A DNA stretch of 64,000 nucleotides, from contig CACYSG010000018.1 of the NCBI GenBank assembly GCA_902776955.1, positions 45,596 to 109,595 on the forward strand, written 5' to 3'. This DNA comes from an uncultured Bacteroidales bacterium (lineage in GTDB: Bacteria; Bacteroidota; Bacteroidia; Bacteroidales; Muribaculaceae). Under the pieces are notes generated by a model that made no database searches, was not told the origin of the DNA, and saw nothing but the letters and a program-made list of their open reading frames with translations. The position numbers and the translations under genes are program-made. Of this stretch, positions 8,064-22,670 are shown piece by piece. How positions within the stretch are numbered: the stretch's first letter is position 1; each line of letters opens with the position of its first letter.

Positions 8064-9971
8064 GTGAAGATACTTTCGATTAACGACCTAAACAGTCTAA
8101 GGAAGCGCGCGCAACAAGCTCTGGCTTTGCGCGTAGATGATGCTGACAATACGTCAGATCAGTGCTGTGGGCTCGCTACCGGAGCCGACCACTTGCAGCT
8201 CTTGTGCTGCGGTGGTACCGGATGCAAGGCATCTTACAGCCACAAAATCGTAGATAACCTCAAGGCCGCTCTCGAGGAGAATGGCATCGCCGACAAGGTG
8301 GAAGTCATTACCACGGGTTGCTTCGGTTTCTGTGAGAAGGGTCCCATCGTCAAGGTTATCCCTGACAACACCTTCTATACACAGGTTAAGCCCGAGGATG
8401 CTGCCGAAATCGTCAAGGAGCACGTCATCGGCGGTCGTCGCGTGGAGCGTCTGCTTTATGTTGACCCCAAGACCAACAAGACGGTAAGCGACAGCAAGCA
8501 CATGGACTTCTACCGCAAGCAGATGCGTATCGCGCTGCGTAACTGCGGTCTGATTGATCCCGAGAACATCGAGGAGTACATCGCACGCGACGGTTATCAG
8601 GGCATCGCCAACGCTTTGCTCAACCAGACCCCCGAAGAGGTGATCGACATCATCAAGGCATCGGGTCTGCGTGGCCGTGGTGGCGCTGGCTTCCCCACAG
8701 GTATGAAGTGGGGCTTTGCTCGTGGCTATGATGCCGACGAGAAGTATGTGGTCTGCAATGCCGACGAGGGCGACCCCGGTGCATTCATGGACCGCTCTAT
8801 CATGGAGGGTGACCCCAACTCGGTAATCGAGGCAATGACCGTCTGCGGTTACTGCATCAATGCCCACAAGGGTCTTATCTATATCCGCGCCGAGTATCCT
8901 CTTGCCGTACACCGCCTCAAGATCGCTATCCAGCAGGCTCGCGAGTATGGCTTCCTGGGCAAGAATATCCTGGGCACCGACTTCAGCTTCGATATCGAAA
9001 TCCGCTACGGTGCTGGTGCATTCGTCTGCGGTGAGGAGACCGCACTTATCCACTCGATGGAAGGCAAGCGTGGTGAGCCCACCTTGAAGCCTCCCTTCCC
9101 CGCCGAGGCTGGTTACAACATGAAGCCCACCAACGTGAACAACGTCGAGACCCTCGCCAACGTGCCCATTATCCTGACCAAGGGCGCAGACTGGTTCGCT
9201 TCGATCGGTACCGAGAAGAGCAAGGGCACCAAGGTGTTCGCTCTGGCTGGTAAGATCAACAATGTGGGCCTGATCGAGGTTCCCATGGGTACCACCCTGC
9301 GTGAGATCATTTACGACATCGGTGGTGGCGTGAAGAACGGCAAGGAGTTTAAGGCTGTACAGACCGGTGGCCCCTCGGGTGGCTGCTTGACGCAGAAGCA
9401 CCTCGACACCCCCATCGACTACGAGCACCTCGCTGCTTCGGGCTCGATGATGGGTTCTGGCGGTATGATCGTCATGGACGAGGACGACTGTATGGTCAGC
9501 GTGGCCAAGTTCTACCTCGAGTTCACCTGCGACGAGAGCTGCGGTAAGTGCACACCCTGCCGCATCGGTAACAAGCGTATGCTTGAGATCCTTACCCGCA
9601 TCACCGAGGGCAAGGGAACGATGGAAGACCTCGAGCGCCTCAAAGAGCTCGGCGAGATCATCAAGGATACCGCCCTCTGCGGTCTGGGTCAGACCTCTCC
9701 CAATCCTGTGTTATCGACGATTAACAACTTCTGGGACGAGTATGTGGAGCACGTGAAACAGCACGTCTGCCGCGCTAAGCAGTGTAAGGCCCTCGTGACC
9801 TACAGCATCGAGGCCTCCAAGTGTAAGGGTTGCGGTGCCTGCGCCCGCAAGTGCCCCTCCAACGCCATCATGGGCGACATGCGCAAGCCTCACATTATTA
9901 ACCCCTTCGAGTGCATTCGCTGCGGTGTCTGCAAGTCTACTTGCCGCTTCGACGCCATCTCAATCTATTAA
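8064..9971 (+). CDS. hydB: Electron-bifurcating [FeFe] hydrogenase subunit beta (NuoF-like, HydB)
   Basis: This 635-residue flavoprotein would bind FMN, NAD(H) and several Fe-S clusters and link NADH to the hydrogenase subunit. Domains in order are: a thioredoxin-like [2Fe-2S] domain at about 43-125 (Cys49, 54, 86, 90), the NuoF core at about 195-480 with GRGGAGFPTG and YGAGAFVCGEETAL, a [4Fe-4S] site ESCGKCTPCR at 491-500 with Cys539, and a C-terminal 2[4Fe-4S] ferredoxin domain at about 585-628. This order is the hallmark of HydB in trimeric bifurcating hydrogenases. hydA follows after 14 bases and hydC after that, so the three should form one operon. Confidence 0.93.
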   Translation: MKILSINDLNSLRKRAQQALALRVDDADNTSDQCCGLATGADHLQLLCCGGTGCKASYSHKIVDNLKAALEENGIADKVEVITTGCFGFCEKGPIVKVIPDNTFYTQVKPEDAAEIVKEHVIGGRRVERLLYVDPKTNKTVSDSKHMDFYRKQMRIALRNCGLIDPENIEEYIARDGYQGIANALLNQTPEEVIDIIKASGLRGRGGAGFPTGMKWGFARGYDADEKYVVCNADEGDPGAFMDRSIMEGDPNSVIEAMTVCGYCINAHKGLIYIRAEYPLAVHRLKIAIQQAREYGFLGKNILGTDFSFDIEIRYGAGAFVCGEETALIHSMEGKRGEPTLKPPFPAEAGYNMKPTNVNNVETLANVPIILTKGADWFASIGTEKSKGTKVFALAGKINNVGLIEVPMGTTLREIIYDIGGGVKNGKEFKAVQTGGPSGGCLTQKHLDTPIDYEHLAASGSMMGSGGMIVMDEDDCMVSVAKFYLEFTCDESCGKCTPCRIGNKRMLEILTRITEGKGTMEDLERLKELGEIIKDTALCGLGQTSPNPVLSTINNFWDEYVEHVKQHVCRAKQCKALVTYSIEASKCKGCGACARKCPSNAIMGDMRKPHIINPFECIRCGVCKSTCRFDAISIY

Positions 9972-9985
9972 ATTTCGATAGCATC

Positions 9986-11755
9986 ATGGAAGAAAAAAAT
10001 ATGATCACTCTGACAATTGATAAACACGAGGTTACCGTTCCCGCAGGTACCATGCTGCTCGACGCCGCCAAGACGGTAGGTATCAGCATTCCCACCCTGT
10101 GCCACATCGACCTGGAGGGCACTTGTGTACAGAACATGCCCGCCTCGTGCCGCATTTGTGTTGTGGAGATTGAAGGCCGTCGCAACCTGGCCCCCGCTTG
10201 CGCTACTCGCGTGACCCCCGGTATGGTGGTTCACACCAACAGTGGCCGCGTCATCCGCGCACGCAAGACGGTTGCCGAGCTCATGCTTAGCGACCATCCC
10301 AACGATTGCTTGACCTGCCCCAAGTGCAGTGACTGTGAGCTCCAGCGCCTGGTTATGCGCTTCAACATCCGTCAGATGCCCTATAACGGTGGCGAGCAGA
10401 GCGAGCGCAAGCAAGAGCTCACGCCCGCTATCTCACGCAACATGGAGAAGTGCGTTTACTGCCGCCGTTGCGAGAGCGTCTGCAACAACGTCCAGTCTGT
10501 CGGCGTTTTGAGCGCTATCCGCCGTGGTTTCAACACCACCATCGCGCCCACCTTCGACAAGATGTTCACCGACACCAACTGTACCTATTGCGGTCAGTGC
10601 GTCGCTGTATGTCCCACCGGAGCTCTCACCGAGCATGACTATACCAACCAGCTCATGGACGACCTCACCAACCCCGACAAGGTGGTTGTCGCTCAGCCCG
10701 CTCCCGCCGTACGTTTCGCTCTCGGCGAGGAATTCGGCATGCCCGCTGGCACCATCGTCACCGGCAAGCTCGCTACCGCTTTGCGCGACCTGGGATTTGA
10801 CTACGCGTTCGACACCGACTTCGCTGCCGACCTCACCATCATGGAGGAGGGCACCGAGATCCTGCAACGCCTCAACAAGTTCCTCGCTGGCGATAAGGAT
10901 GTGAAGTTGCCGATCATGACTTCGTGCTGCCCCGCTTGGGTGAACTTCTATGAGCACGAGTTCCCCGATCTGCTCGACTATCCCTCGACCGCTAAGTCGC
11001 CCGCACAGATGTTTGGCGCTGTCGCCAAGACCTACTGGGCCGAGAAGATGGGTATCCCCCGCGAGAAACTCGTCGTCGTTTCAATCATGCCTTGCTTGGC
11101 CAAGAAGTATGAGGCCGGCCGTGAGGAGTTCAAGGTGGACGGCAATCCCGACGTGGATTACAGCATCTCCACCCGCGAGCTGGGTCGCCTGATCAAGCGC
11201 GCCAACATCGACTTCACCAACCTGCCCGACAGCGACTTCGACTCGCCCCTCGGCGAATCGACAGGTGCTGGTGCCATCTTCGGTATCACCGGCGGTGTGA
11301 TGGAGGCTGCTCTGCGTACCGTCTATGAGGAATTTACCGGCAAGACCCTGCCGCACCTCGAGTTCAACGACGTGCGCGGCTTTGAGGGCATCAAGGAGGC
11401 TACCATCGACCTCAACGGCTTTGAGCTTAAGGTCTGCGTCGCTCACACCCTGAGCAACGCCCGCAAGGTGATGAACGCCCTGCGTGCCGGCAAGCTCAAC
11501 TACCACGTGGTTGAGGTGATGGCATGTCCCGGCGGTTGCATCGGTGGTGCTGGTCAGCCCTACCACCACGGCAACATCGAGATTCTCAAGGCACGTGCCG
11601 CTGCCGTTTATCGTGAAGACGAGGGCAAGAAGCTGCGCAAGAGCCACGAGAACCCCGACATCCAGAAGCTGTACAAGGAATTCCTGGGTGAACCCTGTGG
11701 CGAGAAGTCGCATCACCTGCTTCACACGCACTACTTTGATAAGAGCATTCATTAA
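9986..11755 (+). CDS. hydA: Electron-bifurcating [FeFe] hydrogenase catalytic subunit (HydA)
   Basis: This 589-residue catalytic subunit evolves or consumes H2 at the H-cluster. It has a plant-type [2Fe-2S] domain (Cys39, 55, 58, 72), a His-Cys3 cluster (His104, Cys108, 111, 117), 2[4Fe-4S] at about 156-210, and the H-domain with all three signatures: TSCCPAW (312-318), MPCLAKKYE (368-376) and ACPGGCIGG (513-521). H-cluster cysteines are 314, 370, 514 and 518. The start is set at 9986, just after hydB. An upstream in-frame start at 9911 would overlap the hydB ferredoxin region and add a tail that matches nothing. ATG at 10001 is the alternative. Confidence 0.95.
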   Translation: MEEKNMITLTIDKHEVTVPAGTMLLDAAKTVGISIPTLCHIDLEGTCVQNMPASCRICVVEIEGRRNLAPACATRVTPGMVVHTNSGRVIRARKTVAELMLSDHPNDCLTCPKCSDCELQRLVMRFNIRQMPYNGGEQSERKQELTPAISRNMEKCVYCRRCESVCNNVQSVGVLSAIRRGFNTTIAPTFDKMFTDTNCTYCGQCVAVCPTGALTEHDYTNQLMDDLTNPDKVVVAQPAPAVRFALGEEFGMPAGTIVTGKLATALRDLGFDYAFDTDFAADLTIMEEGTEILQRLNKFLAGDKDVKLPIMTSCCPAWVNFYEHEFPDLLDYPSTAKSPAQMFGAVAKTYWAEKMGIPREKLVVVSIMPCLAKKYEAGREEFKVDGNPDVDYSISTRELGRLIKRANIDFTNLPDSDFDSPLGESTGAGAIFGITGGVMEAALRTVYEEFTGKTLPHLEFNDVRGFEGIKEATIDLNGFELKVCVAHTLSNARKVMNALRAGKLNYHVVEVMACPGGCIGGAGQPYHHGNIEILKARAAAVYREDEGKKLRKSHENPDIQKLYKEFLGEPCGEKSHHLLHTHYFDKSIH

Positions 11756-11778: not shown

Positions 11779-12273
11779 ATGAAGAAGAAAGAAGAAATCA
11801 AACTGGCGTGTACCGTAGTTCAACAGGTTGAGGAAATCTGTGACAAGCACGGAAATAAGCCCGGTGAATTGATTAACGTACTGCACGAGTGCCAGGCTTT
11901 GCACGGATATCTCCCCGAGGAGATGCAGCGCATCATCGCACGCAAGCTGGGCATCCCCGCTTCCAAGGTTTATGGCGTGGTGACGTTCTACTCGTTCTTC
12001 ACCATGACCCCCAAGGGCAAGCACCCGATTTCGGTCTGCCTGGGTACCGCTTGCTACGTGCGCGGTTCCGAGCGTCTGCTTGAGGAAATCAAGCGCATCC
12101 TCAACATCGAGGTGGGTGAGACGACCCCCGACGGTAAGTTCTCACTCGACTGCCTGCGCTGTGTCGGCGCTTGCGGTCTCGCACCCGTGGTGATGATCGG
12201 TGAGCATGTATATGGCCGCCTTGAAATCAAGGACGTGCGCAAGATCCTCGACGACGTCGCCGCACAGGATTAA
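11779..12273 (+). CDS. hydC: Electron-bifurcating hydrogenase gamma subunit (NuoE-like, HydC)
   Basis: This 164-residue protein has the NuoE fold: an N-terminal helical domain (LINVLHECQALHGYLP, then KVYGVVTFYSFF) and a thioredoxin-like [2Fe-2S] domain with cysteines in C-LGTA-C and C-VGA-C. It would relay electrons between HydB and HydA. It lies 23 bases after hydA and is followed by a strong terminator at 12297, so it ends the operon. Confidence 0.93.
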   Translation: MKKKEEIKLACTVVQQVEEICDKHGNKPGELINVLHECQALHGYLPEEMQRIIARKLGIPASKVYGVVTFYSFFTMTPKGKHPISVCLGTACYVRGSERLLEEIKRILNIEVGETTPDGKFSLDCLRCVGACGLAPVVMIGEHVYGRLEIKDVRKILDDVAAQD

Positions 12274-12427: not shown

Positions 12428-12433
12428 GTCCCT

Positions 12434-12550
12434 CCGTAATCCCCGTAATCCCCGTTATCTCCGTTATCTCCGTTATCTCCGTTATTTCCGTTATTTCCGT
12501 TATTTCCGTTATTTCCGTTATTTCCGTTATTTCCGTTATTTCCGTTATCT
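12434..12550. repeat. 9-bp tandem array, 13 units
   Basis: Two CCGTAATCC units, three CCGTTATCT, seven CCGTTATTT and one CCGTTATCT run without interruption. Because the period is three codons, open frames cross the array on both strands (Ile-Ser-Val on plus, Asn-Gly-Asn on minus), but these are artefacts of the period. Shorter arrays of the same unit occur at 23558 and 60577. Confidence 0.95.
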
Positions 12551-12696
12551 CCGTCCCCTGTAGCCCCCGTCCCCCCGCAACCTAGAGCAGCGAGTAGGGC
12601 CACAGGTAAGCCCATTAGGCCTATATGATTTTCAAATGATTATCAATCAACTTATTACAACAGGAAATGAAAACTTTCCCTGGACACTAACGAAAT

Positions 12697-12802: not shown

Positions 12803-12834
12803 TTTGTGGGATTGGAAGAAAAACTGTAATTTTG
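12803..12834 (+). promoter_or_regulatory. Promoter of the mosaic [FeFe] hydrogenase gene
   Basis: A -33 TTTG (12803-12806) and -7 TAATTTTG (12827-12834) are separated by 20 bases. The gene starts about 66 bases downstream, so it is expressed independently of hydBAC. Confidence 0.7.
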
Positions 12835-12900
12835 TAAGTGAAATTGGATAGATATCCACATCAATCAAAATTCCTTAAATTATTAACCAATTAATTGTCA

Positions 12901-14706
12901 ATGGATTCTCAACTCAACGAAACGCCGAACAAGGCGAATGGCGAAGTGCAATCAGGTAATGCCTCGGAGGCATACGGTCTGATTGGTAACCAACATGTCC
13001 AGGTCCTGTGCTGCTGTGGCTCATCTTGCTATGAGTCGGGCAGCTTGAAAATCATTGACAATTTTATCCGTGTTATCGCCAGCTATGGCCTGGGCAGTCG
13101 TGTGGATGTCGTGGCAACGGGTTGCTTTGGCTTCTGTGCCAAGGGGCCTATCGTCAGGATAATGCCCGACAACACGACCTACGTCCATGTGCGCCCCGAG
13201 GATGTGGAGGATATCGTCAAGACGCACATCATCGATGGACGTCTGCTCGAGCGACTGCAGTATGTGGACTTCACGGCACATCAGTTGATGGACGACGCCA
13301 AGCACTGGAGCTCACACCCCAAGCAGCTGTCGATGGACGCGATGTTGCACGACTACATCTACGAGATTGGCGGCAAGAGGTTCTTGTCGGTGATGTCCTA
13401 CAAGATTGAGGCTGACAAGTGCAAGGGATGTGGCGCTTGCAAGCGCAACTGTCCCAGCCATGCCATTGTGGGCGATTTGCGTCACCCTCATGTGGTCAAT
13501 CCTTACAAGTGCACCTGCTGCGGACATTGCACGACCAAGTGCAAGTTCGACGCCATCCATGGTCCCGTCGGCGCCCTCAGCGAGCGCAACTATGTTGAGG
13601 ACCTCCTGGTCGATGTCGCCGACCCCGACAAGATCGTTGTGGCCCAGACGGCGCCGGCTGTGCGCTATGCCCTGGGCGAGGAGTTCGGCATGCCGCCGGG
13701 AACCATCGTCACCGGCAAGATGATTTCGGCCCTGCGCAAGGTGGGCGTGGACTACGTGTTCGATACCGACTTCGGTGCCGACATCACGATTGTCGAAGAG
13801 GCTGCCGAGATTGTTGACCGAATCAGGAAATTCATGGCAGGGGACAAGACGGTGAGAATACCCATCACCACCTCGTGCTGCCCGGCATGGGTCAACTTCT
13901 TTGAGAACGATTATCCCGACCTGCGCGAGTATCCCTCAACCTGCAAGTCTCCGGCCCAGATGCTCGGTGCCGTCCTCAAGACCTATTGGGCACAGCGCAT
14001 GGGAATACCACGTGAAAAACTGGTGATGGTATCGGTGATGCCGTGCCTGTCCAAGAAATATGAGTGTGCCCGTGACGAGTTCATCACCGACGGCAACCCC
14101 GATGTGGATTACTCCATCACGACCATCGAGTTGGCCGAACTCATCAAGCGCATGAACATCGACTTCGAGCGTCTCGCCGACGGCCAGTTCGACTTCCCGC
14201 TGGGCGACTCTTCGGGTGCTGGCGCCATCTTCGGCACCACAGGCGGCGTCATGGAGGCTGCGTTACGCACGGTCTATGAGGAATTTACCGGAAAGACCCT
14301 GCAGCGCATCGAGTTTGATGAGGTGCGTGGACTCGACGGTATCCGTGAGGCGGTTATCGACCTTGACGGCTTTGAGTTGAGAGTATGCGTGGTCAACACC
14401 CTGGCCAATGCCCGCATTATCATGGACAAACTGCGTGCCGGCGAACTCAACTATCATGTCATCGAGGTGATGGCATGCCCGGGTGGCTGTATCGGCGGTA
14501 CTGGCCAGCCTTACCACCATGGCGACATCGAGGTCATCAAGGCCCGTCAGCGTGCCATCTACAGCGAGGACATCGGCAAGCGCCTGCGCAAGAGCCACGA
14601 GAACCCCGTCATCCAGCGCCTCTACCACGAGTTCCTCGGCGAACCGCTCCACGGCCGTGCCCACGACTTGCTTCACACCAAGTTCCGCGACAAGTCCATC
14701 CTTTAA
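12901..14706 (+). CDS. Mosaic [FeFe] hydrogenase: thioredoxin-like [2Fe-2S] + 2[4Fe-4S] + H-cluster domain
   Basis: This 601-residue protein carries a complete H-domain: TSCCPAW at 324-330, MPCLSKKYE at 380-388 and ACPGGCIGG at 525-533, with H-cluster cysteines 326, 382, 526 and 530. The N-terminus differs from HydA. It has a thioredoxin-like [2Fe-2S] domain at about 33-118 (Cys39, 43, 75, 79) and a ferredoxin domain at 168-218, both closely resembling the two ends of HydB. The plant-type [2Fe-2S] and His-Cys3 domains are absent, as is any FMN/NADH-binding part. It should therefore be a soluble hydrogenase using ferredoxin or a partner protein, or possibly a sensor. The start is ATG at 12901; the TTG six bases earlier is less likely. 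Confidence 0.9.
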   Translation: MDSQLNETPNKANGEVQSGNASEAYGLIGNQHVQVLCCCGSSCYESGSLKIIDNFIRVIASYGLGSRVDVVATGCFGFCAKGPIVRIMPDNTTYVHVRPEDVEDIVKTHIIDGRLLERLQYVDFTAHQLMDDAKHWSSHPKQLSMDAMLHDYIYEIGGKRFLSVMSYKIEADKCKGCGACKRNCPSHAIVGDLRHPHVVNPYKCTCCGHCTTKCKFDAIHGPVGALSERNYVEDLLVDVADPDKIVVAQTAPAVRYALGEEFGMPPGTIVTGKMISALRKVGVDYVFDTDFGADITIVEEAAEIVDRIRKFMAGDKTVRIPITTSCCPAWVNFFENDYPDLREYPSTCKSPAQMLGAVLKTYWAQRMGIPREKLVMVSVMPCLSKKYECARDEFITDGNPDVDYSITTIELAELIKRMNIDFERLADGQFDFPLGDSSGAGAIFGTTGGVMEAALRTVYEEFTGKTLQRIEFDEVRGLDGIREAVIDLDGFELRVCVVNTLANARIIMDKLRAGELNYHVIEVMACPGGCIGGTGQPYHHGDIEVIKARQRAIYSEDIGKRLRKSHENPVIQRLYHEFLGEPLHGRAHDLLHTKFRDKSIL

Positions 14707-14859: not shown

Positions 14860-16068
14860 TCACGGCAGCGACACCTTGCCCAGGATGCCCTTGACATGGG
14901 CAATCGTGATGCCGTAGTTGGTCATCGGCGTACCCTGGCGGCGGCATTGCAGCACGCGCGAGGCCATGAATCGGCTGTTGAACATGCATGCGCCGCAATG
15001 AATCACCAGGTCATAGCTCGTCACATCTTCGGGGAAATCTTTGCCAGCCACGATATCGATGGTCAGCCCTTCTCCCACGCGCTGTCGCAGCATGCGGGGT
15101 ATCTTCACCCTGCCGATGTCTTCCGACAGCGGCGCGTGTGTGCAGGCTTCGGCAATGAGCACTCGCGACCGCTCGGTAAGGCGGTCGATCGCCATAGCGC
15201 TCCTGACAAAGAAACGGATATCGCCCTTGTGGGCGGCCATCAGCACCGAGAACGAGGTGAGCAGGCTCCCGGCGGGCTTTTTCTTCTCCACGATATCAAA
15301 CACCTGTGAGTCGGTGATGATGAGTTTTGGCGGCTCACGCAGGGAGGCCAGGGTGCGGTCAATGTCCTCGGTAGTGGTGCACACGGCGGTGCAGCCTTTG
15401 TCCAGCAGGTCACGCAGGGTCTGCACCTGGGGGAGGATCAGGCGCCCCTTTGGCGCCTGCGGGTCCTGGGGCATGACCAGCATGACGAGGTCGCCTCGCT
15501 GGGCAAGATTCCCGGTCAACGACTGTTTCTCATCGTCAGGGACAAGCCCGAATAAGGCCTTCCTGAGTGATTCAAGTCCAGTGCCTTGCAACGCACTCAC
15601 CGGGACCACGTCACATCCCAATTTCTTGGCCATGTCGTCGAGCAGGGCAGGGGAGACGTTCTCCATCAAGTCGGTCTTATTCAACACGGCGACATAGGGC
15701 ACATCGGCCTGCTTGAGCAGTTTGGCCCAGGCGGCTTCGTCGTCGAGCGACGTGCCGTCGGTGACAATGATGGCGATATCGGTCTGCTTGATGACTTCAC
15801 GCGTGCGCTCGGTGCGCAGGTCGCCCACCTTGCCGCTGTCGTCAAAGCCTGCCGTGTCGATGAGCACGCAGGGGCCCAGCGGCAGTATTTCCATCGACTT
15901 CAGCACTGGGTCGGTCGTCGTCCCCGGTACATCACTCACAAGGGCCACCTGTTGCCCCGTCAGGGCGTTAATGAGCGACGACTTGCCTGCATTGCGCCGC
16001 CCGAACAGCGCAATATGCAACCGTTCACTCCTCGGCGCCCTGTTAAAAGCATTACCTTCTTCAGCCAT
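14860..16068 (-). CDS. hydF: [FeFe] hydrogenase maturation GTPase HydF
   Basis: This 402-residue scaffold protein carries the H-cluster precursor to apo-hydrogenase. The N-terminal GTPase domain has P-loop GRRNAGKS (23-30), DVPGTTTDP, DTAGFDD and NKTD. The C-terminal domain has the [4Fe-4S] ligands of HydF: C-T-H in EACTHAPL and HCGAC in VIHCGACMF. The length matches the family. Its start overlaps the stop of the upstream zeta-like kinase gene by 8 bases, which implies coupling in the leftward hydG operon. Confidence 0.95.
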   Translation of the reverse strand: MAEEGNAFNRAPRSERLHIALFGRRNAGKSSLINALTGQQVALVSDVPGTTTDPVLKSMEILPLGPCVLIDTAGFDDSGKVGDLRTERTREVIKQTDIAIIVTDGTSLDDEAAWAKLLKQADVPYVAVLNKTDLMENVSPALLDDMAKKLGCDVVPVSALQGTGLESLRKALFGLVPDDEKQSLTGNLAQRGDLVMLVMPQDPQAPKGRLILPQVQTLRDLLDKGCTAVCTTTEDIDRTLASLREPPKLIITDSQVFDIVEKKKPAGSLLTSFSVLMAAHKGDIRFFVRSAMAIDRLTERSRVLIAEACTHAPLSEDIGRVKIPRMLRQRVGEGLTIDIVAGKDFPEDVTSYDLVIHCGACMFNSRFMASRVLQCRRQGTPMTNYGITIAHVKGILGKVSLP

Positions 16069-16879
16069 TTGAATGATATGCTTTGGAATTGATGATTTCT
16101 TGAATGTCCACCTCTATGGGTGTGTATTCCACATCTCTAAGTTTAAGGCCGGGATTCTTTTCCAGCACTTCACGGGCTCTAACCCAAATGGGATTCCCCT
16201 CTCGGTCTTCCATCACAACCACCCCGTCATGCAATGCTTCTTCAATAATCATGTCGAGGACAGCCTGATTGCAACACTCAATAAAACGCTTGTTTTGTTC
16301 CGAAAGATAAGGAGCAGTACTATCCATAATGATTGAGTTATCAAATAAATGACAGGATTCACCCTTATTGCCTGTTGCCATCAGCACGTAGGCATTGCCT
16401 TCGTAATGGTAGATATCCCAATGATCTACAAGCGGTATGAAAATCTCTTTCAGATTTTTTAAACCGCGATAATACCTGCGTATGACAACATCGTCAGGAA
16501 CATGATGTCCTCCATTTTTAACGCGGTGGGCAATACGCTGAATGGCAAGCTGTGGTGAGGGTAGATAGAAGAACACCAACTCCACTTGATAGCCTCTGGC
16601 TTGTGCTTGAAGCACTAGATTGCGGTATGCGCGAGTCGATAGGGTGGTCTCAATGGCAAATGTCACATCTTGGTTAAGCAATTCTTGAATGCGTTCCAAC
16701 ATGAGCCGGCCAGCCTGAAAAGCAACACTTTGTGGGTCAAGTGGAGAGAGCCCATAGGCTATTTCATCAGCATTTACCCACTGCCGACATTCCAAAATTG
16801 AAGGCAGGAACCGTTTCGATGCCGTAGTTTTCCCGGCACCGTTACATCCAGCAATGATGTATAACCGTTTTCCTGCCAT
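16061..16879 (-). CDS. Zeta-toxin-like P-loop kinase, between hydG and hydF
   Basis: This 272-residue protein has the zeta toxin fold: Walker A GCNGAGKTT (11-19), VNADEIAYGLSP, and FAIETTLSTR followed by FFYLPSPQLAI with a lid region of Arg/His residues. Zeta-type enzymes phosphorylate UDP-activated sugars or other small molecules. Many chromosomal members are uncharacterised. About 70 extra residues follow the kinase core (from about 200), including VMEDREGNPIWVRAREVLE. This resembles the small proteins often encoded next to zeta-like kinases, so the partner may be fused here (inference). There is no separate antitoxin gene. It overlaps hydF and starts 48 bases after hydG. Confidence 0.8.
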   Translation of the reverse strand: MAGKRLYIIAGCNGAGKTTASKRFLPSILECRQWVNADEIAYGLSPLDPQSVAFQAGRLMLERIQELLNQDVTFAIETTLSTRAYRNLVLQAQARGYQVELVFFYLPSPQLAIQRIAHRVKNGGHHVPDDVVIRRYYRGLKNLKEIFIPLVDHWDIYHYEGNAYVLMATGNKGESCHLFDNSIIMDSTAPYLSEQNKRFIECCNQAVLDMIIEEALHDGVVVMEDREGNPIWVRAREVLEKNPGLKLRDVEYTPIEVDIQEIINSKAYHSNG

Positions 16880-16927: not shown

Positions 16928-18343
16928 TTAGAAGTAGAAGTCGCGCTTGCCGTCGGCAATCTCCTGGATGTGCTGGCTGGCGATTTCGCGCACGCGGGCG
17001 TTCTTGATCTTGACCAACTCCTTCTCGATGAGGGCATTGCCCTTAGCAACGGTGTCCTCGCTGGCGAAGTCCATGAGGTACTCTTTGAGCGTCATGAGCG
17101 CATTGGGTGTGCAGATGTCGCCGATCTTGCCGCCCTTGCACAATTCCATGAAGCGGTCACCCGTGCGACCCGAACGGTAGCAGGCGGTGCAGAAGCTGGG
17201 GATATAGCCTATGCTCAGCAGCCAGTTGATGACCTCGTCGAGGGTGCGCGTGTCGCTCACGTCAAACTGTGCCGTCTCGTCGTGACGTTCAACGGTGGTG
17301 TAACCGCCAACGCTGGTGCGGCTGCCGCCGCTGATTTGCGATACGCCCAGGTCGAGCACCTTGGCGCGCACGCTTTGGCTCTCGCGCGTCGAGATGATCA
17401 TGCCGGTGTAGGGCACTGCCAGGCGGATAACGGCGATGATGCGGCAGAAGATGTCATCGGGCAGCACGTCGGGGAATTCGTCGAGGGTGATGTCCTCGGC
17501 AGGACAGATGCGCGGCACACTGATGGTGTGAGGGCCGACGCCGAAGCGTGCCTCCAGGTGCTCGGCATGCATCAGCAGGCCCACGAAGTCGTAGCGGTAG
17601 GTCGTCAGACCGTACAGCACGCCGATGCCCACGTCGTCACAGCCGCCCAACTGGGCACGGTCCATGGCCTCGGTATGGTAGCAGTAATTGCTCTTGGGGC
17701 CCGTCGGGTGCAGGGCCTCGTAGTTCTTGCGGTTGTAGGTCTCCTGGAAGAGGATGTAGGTGCCGATGCCGGCGGCCTTCAGCTTCTCGTAGGCCTCGAC
17801 CTCGGTAGCGGCGATATTCACGTTCAGGCGGCGGATTTCTCCGTTGCCCACCTTGGTATTATAGATGGTGTGGATCGACTCCAGGATGTACTCCAGCGGG
17901 TTCATCACGGGGTGCTCGCCGGCCTCCAGGGCAATGCGCTTGTGGCCCATCTTGACCAAGGCCTCGACCTCGGCGCGGATTTCGTCCTGCGACAGTTTCT
18001 TGCGGGGAATGGTCTTGTTGATGGCGTGGTAGGGGCAATAGACGCACCCGTTGATGCAGTAGTTCGACAGGTACAGCGGCGCGAACATCACGATGCGGTT
18101 GCCGTAGAAGCGAAGTTTCACATCCCGGGCCAGCTGCTCGTAACGCTCGATCAGGTCCGGCTGGTCGCAGTCGAGCAATACGGCTGCCTCGCGGTGGGTC
18201 AAGCCCTTGCACAGGGCGGCCTTGTCAATAATCTGCTCTATCAGCGCACGGTTACTCTTGTTCTTTTCGGCGTAGGATAGGGTTTCTAATATTTCGCTGT
18301 CGTCGATGAATTCATCGGCATAGTTTGACTTGACGTTATACAT
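16928..18343 (-). CDS. hydG: [FeFe] hydrogenase H-cluster radical SAM maturase HydG
   Basis: HydG cleaves tyrosine to supply CO and cyanide ligands for the H-cluster. This 471-residue protein has the radical-SAM motif C-INGC-VYC (Cys96, 100, 103) and the HydG-specific C-terminal cluster C-TA-C with a third Cys 22 residues on (385, 388, 411). The start is ATG at 18343 (MYNVKSNYAD). The longer frame to 18424 crosses the promoter box at 18381 and is not coding. It is the first gene of the leftward operon hydG-kinase-hydF. Confidence 0.95.
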   Translation of the reverse strand: MYNVKSNYADEFIDDSEILETLSYAEKNKSNRALIEQIIDKAALCKGLTHREAAVLLDCDQPDLIERYEQLARDVKLRFYGNRIVMFAPLYLSNYCINGCVYCPYHAINKTIPRKKLSQDEIRAEVEALVKMGHKRIALEAGEHPVMNPLEYILESIHTIYNTKVGNGEIRRLNVNIAATEVEAYEKLKAAGIGTYILFQETYNRKNYEALHPTGPKSNYCYHTEAMDRAQLGGCDDVGIGVLYGLTTYRYDFVGLLMHAEHLEARFGVGPHTISVPRICPAEDITLDEFPDVLPDDIFCRIIAVIRLAVPYTGMIISTRESQSVRAKVLDLGVSQISGGSRTSVGGYTTVERHDETAQFDVSDTRTLDEVINWLLSIGYIPSFCTACYRSGRTGDRFMELCKGGKIGDICTPNALMTLKEYLMDFASEDTVAKGNALIEKELVKIKNARVREIASQHIQEIADGKRDFYF

Positions 18344-21281: not shown

Positions 21282-21897
21282 AATTTGCCGCCTCTGGGCT
21301 TTGCTCTGGGTTGCCGCTTGCGTGCTGCCGCTCAGCGCTCAGCATTTGCAGGAGGGCGACCTGCTCTTCGCCTGTACCGACACGGCTAACGCCATCACGG
21401 CGGTCACCAGTGGGGTAGAGGGCTTGGCCATCGACCACGTGGGCATCGTGCACCGCATCGGCGGCACCGACGGCCCCCTGTTTGTCATCGAGGCCGTGAA
21501 ACCCGTCGTCCGCCTCACGCCCATCGACGACTTCCTCAATGCGGGCGCCATGGTCGTTGTCGGGCGCGTCAATGTCGATGTTGACATGCCGCAGTCTGTC
21601 CGACGCTGCCTGGCGATGGTGGGGCGTCCCTATGATGACCTCTATCAGCCGGGTGACAGCGCTGTCTATTGCAGCGAGTTGGTCCAGATGAACTATGTGG
21701 GCTGTGACGGGCAGCTGATCTTCGACACGGTGCCGATGTCGTTTCACGACGAGACGGGACGCGTCACCGACTACTGGACTGAGTTTTACCGGCAGCGGGG
21801 CATGCAGGTGCCCGAGGGTGCTCCCGGAACCAACCCCGGTGAACTCTCGCGCCGCCCCCAAGTGAAAATTATCGGAAAATACCCCCTTGCGTTATGA
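21262..21897 (+). CDS. YiiX/YebB-like NlpC/P60 family cysteine hydrolase
   Basis: Starting at ATG 21262, this 211-residue protein has a signal peptide (MVSLGIRICRLWALLWVAAC, ending near LSAQ). The permuted NlpC/P60 pattern follows: EGDLLF, IDHVGIVHR with the probable catalytic His, and AVYCSELVQ with the catalytic Cys. YiiX-type enzymes are thought to hydrolyse lipid or peptide amides in the envelope; the substrate is unknown. The start lies inside the 3' end of lptD (20-base overlap, or 44 if ATG 21238 is used), which suggests coupling with LPS export. Confidence 0.8.
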   Translation: MVSLGIRICRLWALLWVAACVLPLSAQHLQEGDLLFACTDTANAITAVTSGVEGLAIDHVGIVHRIGGTDGPLFVIEAVKPVVRLTPIDDFLNAGAMVVVGRVNVDVDMPQSVRRCLAMVGRPYDDLYQPGDSAVYCSELVQMNYVGCDGQLIFDTVPMSFHDETGRVTDYWTEFYRQRGMQVPEGAPGTNPGELSRRPQVKIIGKYPLAL

Positions 21898-22670
21898 TAT
21901 TTTTCTTTTCAGGAACCGGCAACACCCGCTTCATCGCCACGCAGCTGGCTCAGGCTACCGGCGACCGTCTCATCGGCATCGCTTCGGCTGTATTGAACAA
22001 TCAATACGATTACGTGTTAGAACCCGATGAGCGCATCGGCTTCTGTTTCCCCATTCATGGATGGCGACCGCCGTTCATCGTGAGGGACTTCGTGAAGCGT
22101 TTGCGCCTGGAGGGGTATCACGGGCAGTTCTGCTACGCGTTTGCCACCTGCGGCGACGACGTGGGCCTCACGTTCGACTACCTCAGGGACGACTTGCTGG
22201 CTGCGGGCATCACGCTCGACAGCGTGTTCTCGACCATCATGCCCGAGACCTACAATTTCCCCTTCATCGACCAGGTGGATACCCCCGAGAGTGCCCGCGC
22301 CAAGATTGACGCCGCCCGTGAGCGCCTCGCCCGGCTGATGCCCGATATCGTGGGTCGCCACCGTGGTGTCAAGCAGATTAACGCCAGCCGCTGGCCGCGC
22401 ACCAACAGCCGCTTGCTGGGCAGCTTTTTTGTCAAGCATTGGGTGACCGACACCAAGTTTACTGTCGATGCCGATGCCTGTACCCGTTGCGGCAAGTGCC
22501 GTGCGGTCTGTCCGGTAGGAAATATCGATTGTAGCGACGGCAACCCGCCTCGTTGGCTCCACAACGGCCTGTGCACCACTTGTTTTGCCTGCTACCATCA
22601 TTGCCCGACCCATGCCATCGATTTTGCGGGCCGCACCCGTGGAAAACGGCAATATTATTTTAAGGATTAG
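21894..22670 (+). CDS. EFR1-type flavodoxin/ferredoxin fusion protein
   Basis: This 258-residue protein has an N-terminal flavodoxin-like domain with the phosphate loop FSGTGNTRF (residues 5-13) and two C-terminal [4Fe-4S] motifs (CTRCGKCRAVCP and CTTCFACYHHCP). The family (EFrodoxin type) is predicted to carry electrons via FMN and two Fe-S clusters; the partner is unknown. Its ATG overlaps the stop of the preceding gene as ATGA. Placement next to a hydrogen-metabolism region may be coincidental. Confidence 0.87.
   Translation: MIFFFSGTGNTRFIATQLAQATGDRLIGIASAVLNNQYDYVLEPDERIGFCFPIHGWRPPFIVRDFVKRLRLEGYHGQFCYAFATCGDDVGLTFDYLRDDLLAAGITLDSVFSTIMPETYNFPFIDQVDTPESARAKIDAARERLARLMPDIVGRHRGVKQINASRWPRTNSRLLGSFFVKHWVTDTKFTVDADACTRCGKCRAVCPVGNIDCSDGNPPRWLHNGLCTTCFACYHHCPTHAIDFAGRTRGKRQYYFKD

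Follow-up and report, generated by a model that had tools for sequence, protein, structure and literature searches.

A mosaic [FeFe] hydrogenase joining HydB-type terminal domains to a HydA-type H-domain in a Bacteroidales genus

Gene content of the locus and architecture of the mosaic protein

The window, a 64,000-nucleotide stretch of contig CACYSG010000018.1 from an uncultured Bacteroidales bacterium, carries a hydBAC gene cluster followed by a separate gene for a protein that combines HydB-type and HydA-type parts. This gene, hereafter called the mosaic, is followed by two H-cluster maturase genes on the opposite strand. The features of the locus are as follows.

8064..9971, plus strand: hydB, intact (profile matches)
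9986..11755, plus strand: hydA, intact, NCBIfam FeFe_hydrog_A6 (profile matches)
11779..12273, plus strand: hydC, NuoE-like (profile matches)
12827..12834, plus strand: promoter box TAATTTTG, taken by us to match the Bacteroidota-type promoter motif, with a TTG about 20 bases further upstream
12901..14706, plus strand: mosaic [FeFe] hydrogenase, 601 aa, ATG start at 12901, open reading frame open
12985..13260, plus strand: HydB-type thioredoxin-like (Trx) [2Fe-2S] domain, residues 29-120 (Pfam and BLASTP)
13261..13395, plus strand: linker, residues 121-165, with YIYEIGGxxF, replacing the HydB core and its CxxxxCK
13396..13560, plus strand: HydB C-terminal-type 2x[4Fe-4S] domain, residues 166-220 (Pfam and BLASTP)
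13564..14703, plus strand: HydA-type H-domain, residues 222-601 (Pfam and BLASTP)
14860..16068, minus strand: hydF, H-cluster maturase (TIGR03918, 536.5 bits)
16928..18343, minus strand: hydG, H-cluster maturase (TIGR03955, 838.8 bits)

The mosaic is a new architecture of a known kind of enzyme, and the gene is real and selected. Its frame is open also from a TTG at 12895, and internal stops are absent from all 37 orthologous mosaic reading frames that were checked. The first-pass annotation of this DNA had proposed that the N-terminal part resembles the Trx [2Fe-2S] domain of HydB, that residues 168-218 resemble the HydB C-terminal ferredoxin, and that the protein follows HydA from about residue 222. 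All three likenesses are borne out by sequence comparison. BLASTP against the window proteins aligns mosaic residues 29-145 with HydB 40-156 (48%, E 5e-35), residues 106-219 with HydB 509-632 in a second alignment (36%, E 2e-23), and residues 203-600 with HydA 198-588 (69%, E 0), and a search of the mosaic's own genome matches residues 158-220 to the HydB C-terminal dicluster at 56%. Across the dicluster (residues 166-220), 34 of 54 aligned residues are identical to the HydB C-terminus, compared with 15 of 48 for the HydA dicluster; by these counts it is HydB-like and not HydA-like.

In Pfam searches, PF01257 matches residues 30-108 with 22.6 bits, which is below the cut-off of 24.8 (the window HydB scores 27.2), and Fer4 families, PF02906 and PF02256 match at 168-219, 244-533 and 544-598, respectively. 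The same searches did not find Complex1_51K, SLBB, NADH_4Fe-4S, Fer2_4 or NADH-G_4Fe-4S_3 in the mosaic. Neither the NuoF/FMN/NADH core that HydB carries nor the N-terminal half of HydA is present in the protein. The absence of the NuoF core and of the HydA [2Fe-2S] and His-Cys3 domains had been pointed out before, although that list was incomplete in that the HydA dicluster has been replaced too. The linker of about 45 residues is new sequence between the two HydB-type domains. Its YIYEIGG..F motif precedes the second ferredoxin domain in 52 of 53 mosaics, whereas CxxxxCK occupies this place in 17 of 17 HydB fragments.

These 53 mosaic sequences, which comprise 52 named loci and the window protein, were also used to assess residue conservation. 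The [2Fe-2S] ligands assigned by position (C38, C43, C75 and C79), the eight [4Fe-4S] cysteines (C174, C177, C180, C184, C204, C207, C210 and C214) and the H-cluster cysteines at 327, 382, 526 and 530 are present in every sequence. The same is true of C326, E300, S346 and E303 (Cys/Glu/Ser/Glu), which we take to be the counterparts of the CpI proton-path residues. An extra cysteine, Cys206, lies beside the dicluster in 51 of 53 sequences. Residue 348 (13942-13944) is a cysteine in all 53 mosaics, compared with 33 alanines and one serine in 34 HydA rows.

The mosaic scores 461 bits against the general group A model TIGR02512, which is above the cut-off of 405.95, and 580 against NF040763, which is below the cut-off of 765. 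Within the window's assembly (89.74% complete), H-domain matches are limited to HydA and the mosaic, and apart from the mosaic itself it is HydB that best matches the Trx and ferredoxin parts.

Distribution, selection and descent

A family search covered 397 genomes, of which 84 are from the window's genus, with three candidates scored per genome. The mosaic is present in 51 of the 84 genus genomes, in 50 at full length and in one as a piece (G381, query residues 73-601). It was not found outside the genus among the candidates scored in the 397 genomes, three of which gave no match and could be of any genus. Beyond the genus, the strongest hit (E 2.3e-25) falls far short of what a HydA would give, so HydA was likewise not seen among the candidates scored there, and within the family the hydBAC cluster as a whole may be restricted to this genus. 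An overlapping set of 61 genomes yielded full-length mosaics in 20 of 37 genus genomes and a piece in one more (G008), and none of the matches listed for the 24 other genomes of the order spans both halves. When the Trx-linker-dicluster part was used as the query, the full span was recovered only from the window's genome, both in 393 genomes of the order (among matches listed, to E 6.6e-16) and in 296 genomes of the phylum (among matches listed, to E 2e-6).

A scan of named-species genomes returned at least 70 loci, at least 52 with the whole span and at least 18 with HydB only. All 52 whole-span loci are titled as uncultured or MAG Bacteroidales-type bacteria, and they are largely the genus genomes already counted (35 of 52 matching). 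Their titles include seven that name a ruminant, 32 with a RUG label, which presumably denotes rumen, and 10 SRR and three UBA bins whose titles state no source. The Trx part and the H-domain occur together in none of the 58 PDB sequences listed at E 1e-5, and no description of this architecture was recognised in searches of open-licence PMC papers. An old, widespread family of this architecture, named earlier as a possible refutation, did not appear: all finds in the genomes examined come from a single genus, with phyla beyond Bacteroidota represented by the named-species scan and the plasmid records.

Two sets of candidates for mosaics elsewhere were rejected. HydB-like proteins from other Bacteroidota (L176-L181; 1046-1049 and 631-639 aa) have Trx frames without the H-domain motif in a motif search. 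A Cetobacterium plasmid match spans 87% of the query and is the only one of 22 plasmid records to reach 80% coverage, with seven records falling outside the listing; the gene is annotated as an ordinary group A6 hydrogenase and lies beside NuoE- and NuoF-like genes.

The mosaic is under purifying selection, with dN/dS of about 0.04. The mosaic H-domain has median dN/dS values of 0.041 and 0.050 in the two subclades and the Trx domain values of 0.039 and 0.048, and the corresponding HydA values are 0.049 and 0.050. Only pairs with dS of 0.05-2 enter these medians: for the mosaic H-domain 326 of 496 pairs in the first subclade and 119 of 210 in the second, for HydA 231 of 231 and 111 of 120. A decaying or artefactual gene fusion, to which the long stem branches in the domain trees might point, is negligibly probable: the same structure recurs in the 52 named loci and the window, and we regard a decayed fusion as ruled out by the dN/dS values and the intact ligand residues. 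Separately, median dS in subclade 1 (L072-L102 H-domains) is 1.43 for the mosaic (326 of 496 pairs) and 0.59 for HydA (231 pairs), a difference of more than twofold that perhaps reflects codon bias in hydBAC or later exchange of hydBAC between species.

Domain trees had been proposed as a check on local origin, and they place the parts of the mosaic not far from the local HydB and HydA. In a quick H-domain tree, for which 85 of 129 rows were used, 27 mosaics form one clade (SH-aLRT 99) within the genus HydA, sister to five genus HydA sequences (97). A more careful tree of 48 rows recovers the same grouping (100/99 and 99/97), and the genus HydA sequences form one side in 0% of its 200 bootstrap trees. 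Forcing them together is rejected by a modest margin (p-AU 0.037), in a test whose HydA group was named only after the quick tree had been seen. The split between the genus sequences and other HydA is weak in the careful tree (42/27) and stronger in the quick tree (90). These H-domain trees and the AU test support descent of the mosaic H-domain from within the genus HydA. Separate trees of the Trx (88 rows) and ferredoxin (76 rows) parts each show one mosaic clade near the genus HydB with little resolution. When the two parts are joined (46 rows), the mosaic groups with ten genus HydB sequences (96/85), a placement that carries a long-branch warning, and the AU test does not reject the genus HydB as one clade (p 0.42). 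The other mosaic parts likely descend from the genus HydB.

Forty aligned relatives (of 52) fall into two subclades, whose identities to the window's mosaic are 79-92% and 62-66%. With its long stems and two subclades, the mosaic is an older event and not a recent copy of its own genome's HydB and HydA. The earlier description of a HydB with a deleted core fused to a HydA H-domain therefore holds for the architecture and the H-domain tree, but not in the sense of a recent local copy.

Gene neighbourhood and proposed function

Conserved neighbours, which the first-pass annotation had suggested looking for, do exist. HydA or a piece of it lies upstream on the same strand in 45 of 53 mosaic loci and within 1.5 kb in 37, and the gap is about 1 kb or less in 35 of the 45. 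The remaining eight loci include four that start at a contig edge and four with more than 5 kb of contig there. By hand count, the genus genomes comprise 48 with HydA and mosaic, 13 with HydA only, three with mosaic only and 20 with neither, and this co-occurrence gives a Fisher p of 4.9e-8 with kinship and missing sequence ignored. Ten loci from HydA-only genomes have HydB and HydA without the mosaic, and hydC is followed there by hydF or other genes where the contig continues. In one relative (L108, 5474-7460), HydB is split over two frames beside an intact mosaic, reflecting either a sequencing error or a real loss.

The earlier proposal that the mosaic has its own promoter after hydBAC gains support from a motif common to several species. 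In 47 of 53 loci, TAnnTTTG is found in the 200 bases preceding the first ATG, compared with about 0.13 per locus in simple shuffles. It sits at -72 to -74 in most of subclade 1, its position varies in subclade 2, where the TTG box is often missing, and it is absent from six of the 53 loci. A sigma-70 scan did not find a plus-strand site upstream of the gene. Much of the gap between hydC and the mosaic is occupied by a 9-base tandem repeat, CTCCGTTAT (13.7 copies, window 12432-12554), within a 97-aa open reading frame that has no NCBIfam match.

Elsewhere in the neighbourhood, a 272-aa open reading frame between hydF and hydG (16061-16879, minus strand) has no NCBIfam match at 1e-10, is 77-90% conserved in seven relatives and appears P-loop kinase-like by eye. 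An EFR1-family ferredoxin gene near the hydrogenase cluster (21894-22670, plus strand) is a possible electron partner. The HydE gene is on another contig of the genome, and pyruvate:ferredoxin oxidoreductase is found in pieces on two contigs.

The linkage to hydBAC and the co-occurrence would fit a shared complex, in which the mosaic serves as an alternative catalytic subunit that binds HydC or HydBC through its Trx domain and is fed electrons by the flavin enzyme as part of a variant bifurcating complex. The published model, with a path from HydC C1 through B1 to B3/B4, would accommodate this arrangement (PMC9499530). We consider such a complex unlikely given the separate, conserved promoter-like motif and the four loci that lack an upstream HydA despite more than 5 kb of contig. 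In addition, the mosaic is missing the N-terminal half of HydA, through which that subunit is attached to HydB in the bifurcating complex.

We favour the reading that the mosaic is a group A [FeFe] hydrogenase that arose in this genus, does not bifurcate, and is coupled to ferredoxin, making H2 without NADH (probability roughly 0.55). For T. maritima HydABC, ferredoxin is proposed to react at the HydB C-terminal clusters B3/B4, which would be linked to the flavin by way of B1 and C1 and whose distance from the H-cluster path would help to enforce coupling, a mechanism that the authors themselves call highly speculative (PMC9499530). Under the numbering of a second paper, the ferredoxin path runs C1-B2-B3-B4 (PMC11406978). 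The T. maritima HydB also has a Zn hinge of three cysteines and one histidine (PMC9499530), and by analogy the CxxxxCK of HydB is taken to be part of it. Judged from the alignments, the HydB pieces retained by the mosaic would be those proposed as the ferredoxin branch, with the hinge sequence before them lost. That these domains are kept, the FMN core and hinge dropped and the H-domain joined suggests a direct ferredoxin-to-H2 enzyme.

In this proposal, the flavin core would have been lost between the HydB ends and the product fused to a HydA H-domain inside this Bacteroidales genus. Reduced ferredoxin would donate to the HydB-derived [2Fe-2S] and 2x[4Fe-4S] module, which takes the place of the HydA dicluster in the sequence and would pass electrons straight to the H-cluster, where H2 would be made without NADH. 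Alongside the coupled HydBAC, the mosaic would then offer an outlet for electrons when ferredoxin becomes over-reduced. Dropping the flavin centre probably turned the protein into a simple ferredoxin-driven hydrogen maker. The analysis establishes the architecture, the single H-domain clade within the genus HydA, the purifying selection, the intact ligand residues and the presence of maturase genes. We infer that the HydB donor came from the genus, and likewise which clusters the mosaic holds, how they are arranged, what donates its electrons, which way the reaction runs and what physiological role it has. To our knowledge, a Trx-like [2Fe-2S] domain is not the usual entry point in monomeric hydrogenases, which counts against the ferredoxin reading, as does the fit of the hydBAC linkage and co-occurrence to a shared complex.

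Structure prediction bears on the arrangement of the parts. A first model was set aside for the ferredoxin region, where pLDDT is below 50 at residues 123-227, which we attribute to HydA dicluster rows overlying this region in the alignment. A second model from an alignment trimmed of those rows has a mean pLDDT of 78.9, with 60-86 for the dicluster blocks and values below 50 in the linker (residues 121-165) and at both joints. Among solved structures, those of CbA5H and the D. desulfuricans enzymes rank highest as matches to the model, and HydA of the bifurcating T. kivui enzyme comes ninth; any protein with an H-domain would be expected to match a hydrogenase fold.

Another possibility is that the mosaic senses H2 or redox state, with the Trx domain signalling the condition of the H-cluster to a partner. 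Genes for sensory hydrogenases often lie close to those for trimeric bifurcating enzymes (PMC3561251), and the mosaic-specific Cys348, to which we assign no role, could be read in the same direction. This role is quite improbable: Pfam searches of the mosaic did not find a PAS, kinase or output domain, and none of the nine scanned neighbours matched a regulator family (five of them had no match at all). Moreover, group C enzymes are described as lacking a conserved cysteine near the H-cluster (PMC8924675), whereas the mosaic keeps C326 in 53 of 53 sequences.

The same paper states that the function of these enzymes is not predictable from sequence alone (PMC8924675), which leaves room for a mosaic that takes up H2 and passes the electrons by way of its Trx domain to ferredoxin or to a specific small acceptor. 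A sink gene was not recognised among the scanned neighbours of the mosaic, and reduction of ferredoxin by H2 alone is unfavourable at low H2, so we judge uptake to be about as improbable as sensing. Of the three roles listed in the first-pass annotation, that of a ferredoxin-coupled hydrogenase agrees best with the sequence, a subunit that shares partners with HydBC is the less likely alternative, and the sensor is disfavoured.

More speculatively, and with less confidence than in the enzymatic reading itself, the mosaic could be viewed as a natural dissection of a bifurcating hydrogenase. The low-potential ferredoxin branch (the HydB [2Fe-2S] cluster and B3/B4) would have been kept, the flavin and the hinge that separate ferredoxin oxidation from the H-cluster removed, and the branch hard-wired to the H-cluster. 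The cells would thus hold coupled and uncoupled H2 enzymes built from the same parts and switchable through separate promoters. Ferredoxin docking and the separation of the two branches in HydABC are proposed and not demonstrated (PMC9499530), and a review drew the ferredoxin site arbitrarily (PMC6288185). The mosaic would isolate the suspected ferredoxin branch on one chain with the H-cluster, and the question of docking and branching would therefore become testable with a single purified enzyme. It may also represent a second, uncoupled H2 enzyme in gut Bacteroidales. Because its score clears the general group A cut-off, it could be counted among ordinary hydrogenases in surveys.

Comparison with known hydrogenases

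The score above the TIGR02512 cut-off, the H-cluster ligands and the proton path are those of a group A enzyme. A flavin domain, as expected for a bifurcating enzyme, was not found in this chain by Pfam, although a partner might supply a flavin. Relative to group C sensory enzymes, no output domain was found and the proton-path cysteine is retained.

The mosaic is closest to the HydA of bifurcating [FeFe] hydrogenases (group A3; FeFe_hydrog_A6) in its H-domain, which is 69% identical to that of the window HydA and nested in the genus HydA. It differs in lacking the N-terminal [2Fe-2S] and His-Cys3 domains and HydA's own dicluster, with Fer2 and NADH-G_4Fe-4S_3 found in HydA only. With the NuoF-type HydB it shares the Trx-like [2Fe-2S] and C-terminal 2x[4Fe-4S] domains, but it lacks the FMN/NADH core, SLBB, NADH_4Fe-4S and the CxxxxCK before the dicluster. 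The predicted model resembles D. desulfuricans-type enzymes, which combine a dicluster with an H-domain: in Foldseek, five linked-subunit variant chains align over 435-440 columns, a stretch longer than the H-domain alone, with target-based TM scores of 0.79-0.82. Unlike these enzymes, the mosaic has a HydB-type dicluster and an additional Trx-like [2Fe-2S] domain.

The hydrogenosomal hydrogenase of the eukaryote Nyctotherus ovalis likewise combines an [FeFe] hydrogenase with modules resembling parts of complex I. That enzyme retains the 51 kDa module and reoxidises NADH, whereas the mosaic is without this module, and the modules of the N. ovalis protein were most likely acquired through separate lateral transfers (PMC2216082).
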